Assembly (NCBI GenBank): GCA_900539695.1
Contig: UQDG01000050.1
Span: 1-5,340, forward strand
Direction of reading: 5' to 3'
Source of the DNA: an uncultured Oscillospiraceae bacterium
GTDB taxonomy: Bacteria; Bacillota; Clostridia; Oscillospirales; Ruminococcaceae
DNA length: 5,340 nucleotides
Made by a program: the position numbers and the translations under genes. This document shows, piece by piece, positions 229-5,255 of the stretch. A model generated the notes under the pieces. It did no database searches and was not told where the DNA came from. It worked only from the letters and a program-made list of their open reading frames with translations. Position 1 is the first letter of the stretch. Every line of letters begins with the position of its first letter.

Positions 229-248
229 CCGACCGACCGGTCGGTCGG
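229..248. promoter_or_regulatory. Perfect 20-bp palindrome, probable TetR-family operator
   Basis: CCGACCGACCGGTCGGTCGG is identical to its reverse complement over all 20 bases with no spacer; the next base pair outward (T/T) does not match. Each half holds a doubled GACC (or GGTC) unit. Symmetric sites of this length and GACC/GGTC style are typical operators for dimeric TetR-family repressors (family knowledge). It sits immediately downstream of the predicted transcription start, where a bound dimer would block initiation or early elongation. The likely binder is the TetR protein encoded at the end of the same operon. That pairing is inference from position. Confidence 0.8.
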
Positions 249-282: not shown

Positions 283-3200
283 ATGCCGAAATACAGTGTC
301 AAAAAGCCCTTCACCATTCTGGTGGCGGTCATACTGGTGCTGGTGCTGGGCGTGGTCAGCCTGCTGCGCATCCAAACGGATCTGCTGCCCTCGATGAACC
401 TGCCCTACCTGCTGGTAATGACCACCTACCCCGGCGCCAGCCCTGAACAGGTGGAGGCCGATGTGACCCAGCCGCTGGAAAACAGCCTTTCCACGCTGAA
501 CGGCGTGAAAAACGTGACCAGCCAAAGCAACGAGAACTACAGCCTTATCTTTCTGGAATACCAGGAAGATACCGACATGGACAGCGCCATGGTCAAGGCC
601 AGCACGGCCGTGAACCAGCTGGGCGACACCCTGCCCGACATGGCCAGCACTCCCACGCTGATCGAGATCAGCCCCGATATGATGGCCACCCAGTACGTGG
701 CTGTGGACTGCGAGGGCATGGACATCTACGAGCTGTCCGACTACATCAACGACACGATCTTGCCCCAACTGGAGCGCGTGGACGGCGTAGCCAGCGTTTC
801 CGCCACCGGCCTGGTGAAGCAGACCGTGCAGATCACCCTCGATCAGGACAAGATCGATGAGGTGAACGACAAGCTGCTGGTGAAAGTCAGTGACCGGCTG
901 GCCGAAGCCAAGGACCAGCTGGACGAGAACCGCGCCAAAATCAACGAAGGTCTGGCCCAACTGGACGACGCCCAAGCGCAGCTGGACAGCGGCAAAAGCC
1001 AGCTGAACACCCAGAAATCCAACATCACCCAGCAGCTGCGGGACGCCATTACCCAATTGGACGACCAGATCCCCACGCTGGAGCAGAAGATCGCCGACCT
1101 GAAAGGCCAGCTGGACAAGGCCAACCAACAACTGGGCAGCCTGAAGACCGATCCGTCCAGCCTGCCGGAGGTCACCCTGCCCATCGATGACGCGCTGTTT
1201 GCCAGCTGCAAGCAAATTCTGGCCCAGTACGACAGCGAGTACAACGCCGCCGCCCTGCCCGCCAATCTGGAAGAAGCCAAGAGCGACCTTAACAAGATGG
1301 CTGCCATGATCGCCTCCATCGACCGCGCCGATGCCGCCATCCAGGCCGCTGCCGCGCCGCTGACCGGCGATGCCACCATCGAGCAGGCCAATGCCGCGCT
1401 GAACATTCAGATTACGGCGCTTACGCTGCAAATTCAGCAGTTGGACAATGAAATCGCCAACGACATCAACAGCGGTGCCACCGACGAGGAGCTGCAGGCC
1501 AAGCGCGACCAGCAGACCGCCCTGCAGACCCAGCTGACCACGGCCACCGCCAACCGCGATGCCCTGACCGGCTACAGCGACATGGTGAACACCCTGTCCA
1601 CCACCCACACCGCTTTGCAGAACGCTACCGTGCTGCTGAACGCCCGCAAGGACGCCGAGTCCAGCCTGAACAGCAGCACCGAGGAACTGCGCAAGACGCT
1701 GCAATCCACCATCTCCAGCCTGAACGACCAGCTGACCAAGGCCCAGACGATGCTGGCCCAGCTGAACGACCAGCGCGGCAAGCTGCAGACGATGCTGGAG
1801 AATCTGGAAGAGAACCCCGTGGACCCCAGCCTGGCCGATATGGCCGTACAGCTGCTTTTAAGCGGCAGCGAGGCCCAGCTGCAGCTGGGCGAATTCCAGC
1901 TGGAAAGCGGCCGTACCCAGCTGGAATCCGGCAAAGCGCAGTTGGACGCCGCGCAGGAAGAATACGATTCTGCCCGCGAAGAAGCGCTGAAAAGCGCCAA
2001 CCTGGACCAGCTGCTGAACATGAACACGTTGAAACAGCTGATCTCCGCCCAGAACTTCTCGATGCCCGCCGGGTATATTGAGGGCGGCGAGGGCGATGAC
2101 AACCGCTACATTGTAAAGGTGGGCGACACCTTCGACAGCGCCGACACACTGAAAAGCATGGTGCTGTGCAGCATTGACGGCATCGGTGATGTGCGCCTGT
2201 CCGACGTGGCGGACGTAGAGATCACCGACAACGCCGACGACAGCTACGCCAAGGTGGGCGGCAACCGCGCGGTGCTGCTCTCCATTTACAAGAGTTCCAC
2301 CGCGTCCACCTCAGCCGTGTCCTCCGCCAGCACCGCCGCCATGCAGACTTTGATGGACGGCAAGGACGGCCTGCACCTGACCACCATCATGGACCAGGGT
2401 GACTACATCCGCATGATCGTCAAGAGCGTGCTGTCCAACCTGGTGGAAGGCGCCGTGCTGGCCATTCTGGTGCTGGCACTGTTCCTGAAGGACCTGCGCC
2501 CAACGCTGGTCGTCGCCATTTCGATGCCGCTGAGCGTGCTGTTTGCCATCGTGATGATGTATTTCACCGGCATCACCTTCAATATCCTTAGTCTGTCGGG
2601 CCTGGCGCTGGGCATCGGCATGCTGGTGGATAACTCGGTCGTTGTCATCGAGAACATCTACCGTCTGCGTGGGCGCGGCGTACCGGCCCCGCGGGCTTCG
2701 GTTCAGGGTGCCCGGCAGGTATCGGGTTCCATCATCTCCTCGACCCTGACCACCATCTGCGTATTTTTGCCGATGATCTTCTCCACCGGCATGGTGCGCG
2801 AACTGCTCACCGATATGGCACTGACTATCACCTTCAGCCTGCTGGCCTCGTTGATCGTGGCGTTGACCGTGGTGCCCTGCGCGGGTTCCACCGTACTGCG
2901 CACCCAAAAAGAGGTCAAGCACCCGCTGTTTGACAAGCTGCTGGACGGCTACGAGAAAGCCCTGCGCTTCTGCCTGAAAGTCAAGGCCCTGCCCCTGGGG
3001 CTGGCTATCGGCCTGCTGGTGCTGTCGGTGTGGCGCATTGCCACCATGGGCATTGTCATGATCCCCGATATGGGCAGCAACCAGCTCTCCATCACCGTGG
3101 ACGTGGCCGACGACACCGCCAAGGACGACGCTTTTGCCACCGCCGATGCTGTAATGGACGCCGTGAGCGCCCTTGACGGCGTACAGACCGTGGGCGCCAT

Positions 3201-4662
3201 GTCCGGCGGCAACAGCATGGTGTCCATGATGGGCAGTGATGCCGCCGTGGACAACACAACCTTTACCTATTATGTACTGCTGACCGATGAGGGTGCCCGC
3301 CGGGGCAGCGAAATTCAAGAACAGATCACCGATGCCACCGCCTCCCTGCCCTGCGAAGTGACCGTGAATGCCAACGGCATGATGGACATGAGCGCACTTT
3401 CCGGCAGCGGTATCGAGGTCGACCTGTACGGCAGCGACCTGAACGATTTGAACACTGCCGCCGGGCAGGTGGTCGACCTGTTGAACAGCGTGGACGGAAT
3501 CGCCAACGCCAGCGACGGCCAGGAGAACGGCGACGAGGAGATCAACATCTCCATCGACAAGGACAAAGCCATGCGGATGGGCCTGACCGTAGCGCAGGTC
3601 TACCAGCAGGTAGCCGCCAAACTGACCACCGATACCACCGCCACCACACTGAAAGCCAACGGCACCAACTACACCGTGACCATCGTGGACAAGACCGAAA
3701 CGCCGGATCTGGACAGCCTGTTCAACATGGAATTTGAGACGACCACCACCGATGAGGACGGCAGCAGCGTAACCGAGACCCATACCCTGGGCGAGTTTGC
3801 CACCCGCACCACCAGCGCAGGCTTTGTTTCCATCGCCCGCGAGAATGGCTCCCGCAAGATGAGCGTGACCAGCGAGACCGTGGACGGCTACAACACCACC
3901 CTGCTCTCCCGCGAGGTGGAGCCGAAGCTGGCCGCGCTGGATCTGCCCGACGGCGTGACCGCCGAGCTGGCCGGTGAAACCACCCAGGTGGCCGAGATGC
4001 TGCAGCAGATGGTGCTTATGATGACCCTGGCGCTGATCTTCGTCTACTTTGTTATGGTGGCGCAGTTCCAGAGTTTGCTGTCGCCCTTCATCGTGCTGTT
4101 TACGATTCCACTGGCCTTTACCGGCGGCATGCTGGGGCTGATGATTGCCGGCGAACAGCTTTCGCTGATCTCGCTGATGGGCTTCCTGGTTTTGATGGGC
4201 GTTGTCGTCAACAACGGCATCGTCTTTGTGGACTACGCCAATCAGCTGCGCATTGGCGGGCTGGAGCGTACCGACGCGCTGGTAGCCACCGGCCGTACCC
4301 GTATGCGCCCCATTTTGATGACCACCCTGACCACCGTGCTGGCTATGGTAACGATGCTGTTCAGCCAGGATGTGGGCAGCGAAATGAGCAAGGGTATGGC
4401 CATCGTAATCATTGGCGGCCTGACCTATGCCACGTTGATGACGCTGTTCATCGTGCCCGTGATGTACGACCTGTTCTACCGCAAGCCGCCGGTGAACATT
4501 GACGTGGGCGACGATGGCATGGACGATCTGCCCGATGACGCCGCCGAATTTGCGGCAGAGTTTGCCGCCCGCCGCGCCGGTGCAGCCCAGCCTGCCGCCG
4601 ACGCCGAAGCGGAACCCACTTTTGAGACCACCCTGCTGCCCCCGAAGGAGGATGCGAAATGA
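283..4662 (+). CDS. RND-superfamily efflux permease with long coiled-coil insertion
   Basis: This is a 1459-residue integral membrane protein of the HAE1/AcrB-like RND family, which uses the proton gradient to export drugs, lipids or other amphiphiles. The usual two-fold plan is visible. TM1 is at about 8-28, then a large extracytoplasmic loop, then TM2-TM6 at about 718-736, 741-761, 768-790, 815-836 and 845-866. TM7 at about 902-922 precedes the second loop (927-1240), and TM8-TM12 lie between about 1243 and 1398. Family landmarks include LPSMNLP and YPGASPEQVE after TM1, NFSMPAG at 591-597, and LVDNSVVVIEN in TM4 (D783, N784). VVNNGIVFVDY lies in TM10 (N1310, N1311). Relative to AcrB (recalled), D407 is kept, D408 is Asn and K940 is Asn, a pattern I recall from SwrC-like Gram-positive relatives. 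Usual family length is about 1030-1060; the excess is an insertion at about 195-573 plus an acidic Ala-rich tail (1402-1459). The start is the ATG at 283, after the promoter and operator. The stop overlaps the TetR start. The substrate cannot be told. Confidence 0.93.
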   Translation: MPKYSVKKPFTILVAVILVLVLGVVSLLRIQTDLLPSMNLPYLLVMTTYPGASPEQVEADVTQPLENSLSTLNGVKNVTSQSNENYSLIFLEYQEDTDMDSAMVKASTAVNQLGDTLPDMASTPTLIEISPDMMATQYVAVDCEGMDIYELSDYINDTILPQLERVDGVASVSATGLVKQTVQITLDQDKIDEVNDKLLVKVSDRLAEAKDQLDENRAKINEGLAQLDDAQAQLDSGKSQLNTQKSNITQQLRDAITQLDDQIPTLEQKIADLKGQLDKANQQLGSLKTDPSSLPEVTLPIDDALFASCKQILAQYDSEYNAAALPANLEEAKSDLNKMAAMIASIDRADAAIQAAAAPLTGDATIEQANAALNIQITALTLQIQQLDNEIANDINSGATDEELQAKRDQQTALQTQLTTATANRDALTGYSDMVNTLSTTHTALQNATVLLNARKDAESSLNSSTEELRKTLQSTISSLNDQLTKAQTMLAQLNDQRGKLQTMLENLEENPVDPSLADMAVQLLLSGSEAQLQLGEFQLESGRTQLESGKAQLDAAQEEYDSAREEALKSANLDQLLNMNTLKQLISAQNFSMPAGYIEGGEGDDNRYIVKVGDTFDSADTLKSMVLCSIDGIGDVRLSDVADVEITDNADDSYAKVGGNRAVLLSIYKSSTASTSAVSSASTAAMQTLMDGKDGLHLTTIMDQGDYIRMIVKSVLSNLVEGAVLAILVLALFLKDLRPTLVVAISMPLSVLFAIVMMYFTGITFNILSLSGLALGIGMLVDNSVVVIENIYRLRGRGVPAPRASVQGARQVSGSIISSTLTTICVFLPMIFSTGMVRELLTDMALTITFSLLASLIVALTVVPCAGSTVLRTQKEVKHPLFDKLLDGYEKALRFCLKVKALPLGLAIGLLVLSVWRIATMGIVMIPDMGSNQLSITVDVADDTAKDDAFATADAVMDAVSALDGVQTVGAMSGGNSMVSMMGSDAAVDNTTFTYYVLLTDEGARRGSEIQEQITDATASLPCEVTVNANGMMDMSALSGSGIEVDLYGSDLNDLNTAAGQVVDLLNSVDGIANASDGQENGDEEINISIDKDKAMRMGLTVAQVYQQVAAKLTTDTTATTLKANGTNYTVTIVDKTETPDLDSLFNMEFETTTTDEDGSSVTETHTLGEFATRTTSAGFVSIARENGSRKMSVTSETVDGYNTTLLSREVEPKLAALDLPDGVTAELAGETTQVAEMLQQMVLMMTLALIFVYFVMVAQFQSLLSPFIVLFTIPLAFTGGMLGLMIAGEQLSLISLMGFLVLMGVVVNNGIVFVDYANQLRIGGLERTDALVATGRTRMRPILMTTLTTVLAMVTMLFSQDVGSEMSKGMAIVIIGGLTYATLMTLFIVPVMYDLFYRKPPVNIDVGDDGMDDLPDDAAEFAAEFAARRAGAAQPAADAEAEPTFETTLLPPKEDAK
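865..2001 (+). other. Coiled-coil-rich insertion domain within the RND permease
   Basis: Residues about 195-573 of the permease interrupt a segment that is continuous in ordinary RND pumps: VQITLDQDKIDEVND before it and LISAQNFSMPAG after it normally lie about 20 residues apart. The insert is rich in Gln, Asp, Lys, Leu and Ala. The first arm has an unbroken heptad (L213, I220, L227, L234, L241, I248). The last arm has another (L533, L540, L547, L554, Y561), with repeated QLxxG units (G536, G543, G550). The arms resemble each other (EGLAQLDDAQAQLDSGKSQL and QLESGRTQLESGKAQLDAAQ). Pro/Gly-containing breaks near 290-302, 359-363 and 511-516 suggest several helices folded back as hairpins. By comparison with AcrB the insertion point lies in the N-terminal docking subdomain, facing away from the membrane. 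The second half of the pump has no matching insert. Exact edges are approximate. Confidence 0.8.
4645..4651 (+). promoter_or_regulatory. Strong ribosome binding site for the TetR gene
   Basis: AAGGAGG sits 7 bases before the ATG at 4659, inside the last codons of the permease. An ATG at 4652 directly follows it but is too close and in another frame. The site allows the repressor to be translated efficiently from the same mRNA, by fresh initiation or by re-initiation at the ATGA overlap. Confidence 0.85.
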
Positions 4663-5255
4663 CCCCTGACAGCCATGCACAGCGCAAAGCCAAAGTATAC
4701 GAAGCCGCGCTGGCCTTAACGTCTCAGGGCGTCAGCCCCGCCGCTATGACCATCCAGCAGCTGGCCGACGCCGCGGGCATCGGCAAAGGCACCGTGTACG
4801 AATATTTTTCCTCGAAAGAAGAGATTTTGCAGGGCGTGGCCCGCTACTGCTTTGCGCAGGAGAACGAGCGCATCGCCGCCCGGTTTGACCGCTGCCGCAC
4901 GCTGGTCGATTTGGAGAATGAGCTGGTGGACTATTTGCAGGAGGTTGCCGCCCAGCGGATGAGCACCTACCGGCTGTTGGCCGTCAGCTTTGGCCAGCAG
5001 GCCGCTTCGCCCGAATGTACCAACGCATGTCGCAGCCAGCTGACTGCCCTGACCGATGCGCTGGTGGCCCGCCTGCAGGCCGCCGGGGAGATCGACCCCG
5101 ACTTGACGATGGACGCTTGCCGCACCTCGATCTTCTGCACCGTGACCGGCGGGTTGATTGCCCTGTGCTGCAGCGCCGGCAGCGGCACCTCCCTGCCCGC
5201 CCTGCCGCAGAATTTGCGGGAGGCACTGCATAGGAGTTTGCAAGCTCCCAAATAA
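4659..5255 (+). CDS. TetR/AcrR-family transcriptional repressor
   Basis: This 198-residue protein has the usual length and plan of a TetR-family regulator: an N-terminal DNA-binding head followed by an all-helical ligand-binding and dimer domain. The helix-turn-helix spans about 31-50 (TIQQLADAAGIGKGTVYEYF), followed by SSKEEIL at 51-57, the characteristic family signature with the GTVYEYF recognition helix. Residues from about 60 on are divergent, as usual, and do not reveal the ligand. The gene starts within the permease stop (ATGA, 4-base overlap) with a strong ribosome binding site, so the two are co-transcribed and probably translationally coupled. It most likely represses the shared promoter through the palindrome at 229-248, giving negative autoregulation (inference). 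It is rich in cysteine for its size: eight, at 64, 79, 120, 124, 154, 160, 170 and 171, including a CxxxC. That could hint at redox, electrophile or metal sensing, but this is speculative. Confidence 0.93.
   Translation: MTPDSHAQRKAKVYEAALALTSQGVSPAAMTIQQLADAAGIGKGTVYEYFSSKEEILQGVARYCFAQENERIAARFDRCRTLVDLENELVDYLQEVAAQRMSTYRLLAVSFGQQAASPECTNACRSQLTALTDALVARLQAAGEIDPDLTMDACRTSIFCTVTGGLIALCCSAGSGTSLPALPQNLREALHRSLQAPK

Follow-up and report, generated by a model that had tools for sequence, protein, structure and literature searches.

A stretch of 5,340 nucleotides from an uncultured Oscillospiraceae bacterium (the whole of which is called the window here) encodes an RND pump with about 382 extra residues in its docking region, and the long insert is spread over one branch of Clostridial pumps in which a linked adaptor gene is rare. 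We consider the chances about even that this protein is an AcrB-type exporter whose extra residues form a long antiparallel coiled-coil hairpin on the outer face, prolonging the exit path into the cell wall with no separate adaptor protein involved. The coordinates of the features discussed below are collected in Table 1.

Table 1. Features of the window, with positions counted from its first nucleotide
Feature	Position	Strand	Remarks
Perfect palindrome CCGACCGACCGGTCGGTCGG	229..248	.	Upstream of the pump; likely TetR operator
RND permease gene, ACR_tran (PF00873) family with insert	283..4662	+	1459 aa; reading frame open from ATG to stop
N-side anchor ITLDQDKID	832..858	+	Residues 184-192
Outgoing arm, predicted single helix of ~99 residues	844..1140	+	Insert model 5-103, full-length 188-286
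Coiled-coil insert	868..2013	+	Residues ~196-577; extra to the 18-residue plain spacing; mostly helical in both AlphaFold2 models
Helical tip (predicted)	1189..1461	+	Insert model 120-210, full-length 303-393; block pLDDT 84-96
Returning arm, predicted helices	1474..1998	+	Insert model 215-327 and 339-389 (full-length 398-510 and 522-572)
C-side anchor SMPAG	2059..2073	+	Residues 593-597
TM4 motif GMLVDNSVVVIE	2617..2652	+	One Asp retained, second Asp of AcrB replaced by Asn
TetR-family regulator gene	4659..5255	+	Pfam TetR_N, E 2.4e-10; start overlaps the pump gene end by 4 bases

The pump core and the site of the extra residues

The pump gene is preceded, about 12 bases 5' of its ATG, by AAGAAAGGA, which resembles a ribosome-binding site. 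Its product matched the Pfam family ACR_tran at an E-value of 2.1e-192, scoring 642 bits where the cut-off is 28. The match falls into two stretches, and the stronger starts at pump residue 578, equivalent to model position 198. The top solved structure by sequence was MdtB, which aligns to pump residues 7-189 and then again from 580, and the core of an AlphaFold2 model of the pump (residues 40-1239, 35 relatives in the input; mean pLDDT 71.5, pTM 0.45) matched the folds of CusA and AcrB. The closest named relatives are those of Gemmiger formicilis, with 76% identity, or 83% over the core, in two comparisons, which makes a gut Clostridium the likely host. The pump is a member of the AcrB family and would, like AcrB, operate as a proton-driven trimer.

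AcrB carries an Asp-Asp pair in TM4 and a Lys in TM10. At the TM4 positions that we take to be equivalent by AcrB numbering, the window pump departs from this arrangement, and the resulting Asp-Asn pair was found in all 64 expanded pumps (those with extra residues at the site described below) and also in 48 of the 54 plain Clostridial pumps, which makes it a trait of the subgroup; the comparison took in L075-L104 and L113-L142. The TM10 Lys is likewise replaced by Asn in all 64 expanded pumps and in most of the plain Clostridial ones. The proton path of Asp-Asn pumps may differ from that of AcrB.

Between the anchor LDQDKID, ending at residue 192, and SMPAG, the window pump has 400 residues, whereas the spacing is exactly 18 in every one of the 54 plain Clostridial RND pumps, and the insert therefore amounts to about 382 residues. 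The original prediction had been close on each of these points, with an insert of some 380 residues at 865..2001 (residues 195-573), ordinary pumps bridging the two motifs within about 20 residues, and a remainder of about 1020 residues once the insert and the acidic tail are removed, the same figure that we obtained. It had also assigned the insertion to the AcrB-type docking region, and the ACR_tran match is indeed broken close to model position 198, which falls within the N-terminal docking (DN) region; in all 14 relatives' genomes the second ACR_tran stretch begins between 185 and 201. The description of AcrB in PMC6975555 has the DN part of the docking (funnel) domain spliced into PN2 at the insertion point, and its section 6 has the adaptor beta-barrel touching a DN helix and the base of the DN hairpin. 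The turn that received the insertion would belong to that same adaptor-touching DN helix. Since the insert is placed between TM1 and TM2 it should lie outside the membrane, and homology puts it on the outer and not the cytoplasmic side.

Comparison of the insert with Pfam and NCBIfam gave no known annotated domain, as none of the matches listed came up to its cut-off. RND_mfp reached 12.3 bits over the first 55 residues against a cut-off of 94.9, and type_I_hlyD 11.2 bits against 208.65; an identity as an RND_mfp or HlyD adaptor domain was rejected on these scores, which are far under the cut-offs.

Predicted form of the insert

The large hydrophobic residues of the insert recur with a helix-like periodicity that was reached by 0 of 1000 shuffles in the first arm, 0 in the tip and 15 in the last arm, while in control parts of the same pump it was reached by 217 of 1000 (TM part) and by 126 and 466 (porter parts). 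This bears out the heptad-rich helix proposed at the outset, which AlphaFold2 also predicts as helical rather than disordered. The accompanying proposal of resembling arms with QLxxG repeats fared less evenly. The likeness between the arms was reached by none of 500 plain shuffles, but 120 of 500 shuffles preserving the heptad columns reached it, so that the likeness reflects a shared heptad pattern and does not demonstrate duplication; the strict QLxxG motif is present at 233 alone in the first arm and at 532, 539 and 546 in the last.

AlphaFold2 applied to the insert alone (413 residues; mean pLDDT 77.5, pTM 0.50) predicted an outgoing arm, a helical tip and a returning arm, with tip helices at model residues 120-133, 146-151, 153-177 and 183-210. 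The helices of the returning arm are parted by a low-confidence break with a Pro, and the start of the first of them may belong to the tip. A fold search with this model retrieved generic antiparallel coiled coils only (SMC segments and chemoreceptor hairpins); a clean short match was 5f5p, with 82 residues at 1.4 Å across model residues 62-320, and an outgoing arm lying along the returning arm would fit such short pair matches. With predicted helices and coiled-coil fold matches covering both arms, the monomer prediction agrees with the antiparallel hairpin that had been envisaged. With a rise of 0.15 nm per residue, the outgoing arm would measure about 15 nm and the returning helices, if straight, would reach up to about 24 nm.

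When the heptads of 26 long-arm pumps were pooled, both arms had Leu at position a, as the test was set up to give, and a small residue (Ala, Gly or Ser) three positions further on in 58% and 57% of cases on the two arms. The other heptad places of the first arm are mostly polar, and in the last arm hydrophobics make up 36% at e and 41% at f. Such a surface suits a tight two-helix hairpin. A six-helix barrel as modelled for MmpL5 finds little support and is not favoured, as there appears to be one narrow Leu/small-residue seam and a second that is only partial. Differences in length of the first and the last arm are weakly matched (Mantel r 0.13, with 71 of 5000 permutations as high).

Length series, gene neighborhoods and a proposed order of events

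A search for related loci yielded 35 loci from Gemmiger, Lachnospiraceae, Ruminococcus, Roseburia, Anaerostipes and others, among which L005, L009, L018 and L024 hold incomplete genes; all 35 carry a long insert, with 203-446 residues between the anchors. Since the patterns of such a search favour near relatives, an even sampling of genomes was added. Across 118 genomes of the class, a split ACR_tran match in a long frame was found in nine genes of eight genomes, against 45 unsplit full-length genes among the matches listed, whose sequences were not all retrieved and could conceal short loops. The eight split genes thereby added (L105-L112) have a spacing of 102 once and of 231-281 seven times. 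A survey of 398 genomes of the phylum turned up 25 that match the window protein at E ≤ 1e-170, in frames of 985 to 1493 aa. Twenty of these were measured (G001 and G078 were already in the set; G225, G365 and G406 were left out), giving spacings of 36, 38, 38, 38, 39, 39, 39, 56, 56, 57, 59, 59, 111, 225, 248, 248, 248, 281, 369 and 393. The 63 expanded loci thus comprise 12 short (36-59), 2 middle (102-111) and 49 long (203-446) ones. The "clean domain insertion" of the original prediction does not describe such a site, which is graded from 18 upward through these classes.

Besides the long-arm pump L108, genome G112 encodes a second pump, L109, whose loop is of middle size (spacing 102) and which forms a long branch in the trees. 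P0021, P0026 and P0028, similar Gemmiger-type proteins, lack 25-48 insert residues, through either real deletions or assembly collapse of repeats. Apart from these, G037:C187:155-3388 is an RND frame of 1150 aa in which ACR_tran ends at 495 and resumes at 501 with about 70 residues between, possibly another insertion between the halves.

A local adaptor model, built from 25 upstream adaptors, was run on the flanks of the pumps. Plain pumps had a match within 1.5 kb on each side in 27 of 30 and 23 of 24 cases (50/54 together), including the adaptors of L093 and L094, which were recognised though absent from the model's building set, and 25 of 27 upstream ORFs of plain pumps matched RND_mfp of NCBIfam. 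The plain pumps without an adaptor are L096, L098 and L140, which meet a contig end upstream, and L099, where roughly 4.2 kb of upstream and 0.9 kb of downstream sequence contain no adaptor match. Among expanded pumps, a nearby adaptor gene was found in 3 of 35 (L007, L008 and L021), 0 of 8 and 0 of 20, that is, 3/63, in flanks of up to about 8 kb, several of them short or ended by the contig. Whether carriers of the insert lack adaptor genes had been raised as a check, and 60 of these 63 loci have no linked one; the 12 short-loop pumps have none (0/12). The window itself has no adaptor gene, its sole gene beside the pump being that of the TetR-family protein.

At L008 (13126-17325), L021 (12789-17059) and L007 (12352-15850), MacA-like adaptor genes lie just downstream of the RND pump, in frames of 718 aa (L008), 742 aa (L021) and 915 aa (L007, read stop to stop). 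Next after the adaptor gene comes an ABC ATPase gene at all three loci, with a MacB_PCD/FtsX gene after that at L008 and L021.

At the scale of 14 relatives' genomes of unstated completeness, HlyD_D23 matched in nine and RND_mfp in twelve (above its cut-off in six), with neither model matching in G009 and G013; given matches elsewhere in 12 of 14 genomes, an adaptor could serve in trans. TolC and Omp85 were each found in 0 of the 14 (completeness unstated), with control genomes positive in 7 of 14; judged on these relatives, a TolC-type channel of a tripartite system would be missing, which accords with the earlier supposition of a probably monoderm host.

The palindrome upstream of the pump, despite a terminator-like flag, is likely a TetR operator, because it also precedes part of the related pumps. 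Allowing up to 4 mismatches to its 16-base core, we found it before 14 of 44 long- or middle-insert pumps (window counted) and before 2 of 54 plain pumps (L098 and L099); among the loci of the phylum survey it precedes nine of the 12 short-loop pumps and two of the remaining eight. From these counts it is confined to this lineage among the pumps examined, without being present in all of it. A TetR_N match on the gene 3' of the pump occurs in the window, at L001, L008, L016, L017, L098 and L099 (the latter two the same as L143 and L144) and at five short-loop loci, with different neighbors elsewhere, for example at L025, L026 and L035. As pump, regulator and operator also occur together at pumps without the arm (L098 and L099) and at short-loop loci, the set is likely older than the arm. 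Repression of the pump by the TetR protein would likely take place at the upstream palindrome and be lifted when a toxic substrate binds; from the presence of such a regulator one may guess that the substrate is a toxic amphiphile, for instance a bile acid.

The main tree was built by a quick method from a core alignment stripped of the insert columns, with adaptor-linked plain pumps as the root. In it, L098 and L099 (spacing 18) split off first and the expanded pumps form one branch of 45 rows (SH-aLRT 100), inside which the long-arm pumps form one branch of 31 rows (SH-aLRT 100) with the 36-111 group as their sister branch (SH-aLRT 91), L109 being a long row; no reversal to a short loop was seen within the 31-row branch. 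An earlier tree, with long rows flagged, set the insert pumps all apart (100) with L098 and L099 adjoining, and a midpoint-rooted tree placed insert and six short-loop pumps together (100), L109 alone, and the insert group weakly (18). The main tree suggests an order in which the adaptor would have been lost first, the loop then expanded, and a long arm gained once and subsequently lengthened. L098 and L099 are plain pumps with a TetR gene and palindrome and with no adaptor in the DNA examined; since they diverge earliest in the lineage, the adaptor may have been lost before the arm arose. Judging by L098 (with only 0.2 kb upstream) and L099, a pump of this kind seems able to function without an adaptor and also without an arm.

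Candidate roles of the arm

In the reading that we prefer, an exit extension, the arms would arise near the docking helix that bears the adaptor beta-barrel in AcrB, and substrates leaving the funnel would pass between or along them and so get past the membrane surface and the wall. This reading is best supported by the contrast in adaptor linkage: since pumps of this branch rarely adjoin the usual adaptor gene, the arm would likely extend the exit unaided. A simple replacement of the adaptor by the insert is countered most by the loss of the adaptor apparently before the arm, and also by the graded loop.

The adaptors AcrA and MacA likewise present an antiparallel helical alpha-hairpin at the pump exit; they differ as separate proteins with lipoyl and beta-barrel domains, and among the matches listed the insert stays under the adaptor-model cut-offs. 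SwrC/YerP are single-component Gram-positive RND exporters. ApeX, set beside the window pump by description and not by sequence, is an RND exporter of a monoderm with no known accessory gene, and the passages that describe it in PMC5596346 mention no coiled coil. With AcrB, CusA and MdtB (ACR_tran) the window pump shares its core sequence and predicted fold; unlike them it has the insert, no linked adaptor, no outer channel in its relatives, Asp-Asn in TM4 and Asn in TM10, the latter traits being common to most plain Clostridial pumps. It resembles the adaptor-linked Clostridial RND pumps in core, host class and Asp-Asn motif (48/54 of these), whereas in those pumps the insertion point always spans 18 residues, and 50 of 54 have an adaptor gene close by.

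By analogy, the mycobacterial MmpL5 and MmpL10 appear to be the closest working counterpart. In MmpL5, as reported in the relevant part of PMC12501195, the coiled coil is a 196-residue insertion required for efflux and modelled as a 13 nm tube. Like MmpL5, MmpL4 and MmpL10 (HAE-2), the window protein would be an RND exporter with a long antiparallel coiled coil rising from its outer domain. The MmpLs have the coil in the second periplasmic domain, an MmpS partner and a mycobacterial envelope, whereas here an ACR_tran protein carries it in the docking region of the first half; the coil is about twice as long as in MmpL5, the relatives are monoderm, and the window holds no partner gene for the pump. 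An HAE-2 MmpL identity was rejected, with no MMPL family among the Pfam matches up to E 0.01, and so was an MmpL-type coil of the second outer domain, the insert lying in the first half, before TM2.

A fuller version of the exit-extension reading, which we put forward tentatively as possible rather than probable, is a one-polypeptide monoderm counterpart of the tripartite pump: an AcrB-type trimer that lost its adaptor and underwent graded expansion of a docking turn, with three arms of 15-24 nm jointly forming a wall conduit, independently of the MmpL tube and at another point of the RND fold.

It is unlikely that the tip is instead a binding or sensing head for the wall, a secreted partner or a substrate donor, with the coiled coil a mere spacer. 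No other part of the insert is predicted as well as the tip (see Table 1 for its block pLDDT), and gaps favour multiples of seven near the two bases (139 of 417 and 63 of 271) but not in the middle (405 of 2764); yet an alignment of 36 inserts has no 90%-conserved column from residue 27 to residue 384, where a shared binding site would be expected to leave some, and a known domain was not found in the insert.

We would give a rather low probability to the arm as a trimer clamp, in which the bases of the three hairpins would pair and keep the trimer assembled, in the manner of the MmpL10 coiled coil, and the arm would play no part in the exit path. MmpL10 without its coiled coil loses oligomerisation, in the part of PMC12183618 concerned with it, and the long DN hairpin of AcrB, which the insert just precedes in sequence, deeply enters the next monomer as PMC4403515 describes that contact. 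Plain and short-loop relatives, however, presumably trimerise without an arm, neither 200-430 residues nor a folded tip would be needed for clamping, and the first arm has a single seam.

Docking of an unlinked MacA-like adaptor from elsewhere in the genome, which would leave the pump bipartite, seems improbable. The adaptor-model matches in 12 of 14 genomes and the genes just downstream at L007, L008 and L021 are in its favor, but G009 and G013 have none, the three adjoining adaptor genes are followed by ABC-transporter genes, and 60 of 63 expanded loci are without a nearby adaptor. It is more improbable still that the loop is a tolerated expansion of little function, with seven-residue repeats piling up once the docking helix lacks adaptor cover: the graded length series, the drift of long arms from 203 to 446 residues and the 25-48-residue deletions among P0021, P0026 and P0028 (which may be assembly faults) would fit, against the heptad pattern in the pooled 26 long-arm pumps, the conserved flanking motifs and the 31-row long-arm branch with no reversion to a short loop.

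To our knowledge, the role of RND pumps at the outer face of single-membrane cells is poorly known. Should the arms form a conduit, as in the exit-extension reading, the same solution would have evolved twice among RND exporters, once here and once in the MmpLs, with the coils set at different places in the fold. Because this branch provides a natural length series, from 18 to 446 residues and mostly without a linked adaptor, the need for an exit extension and its necessary length become testable in related commensals.
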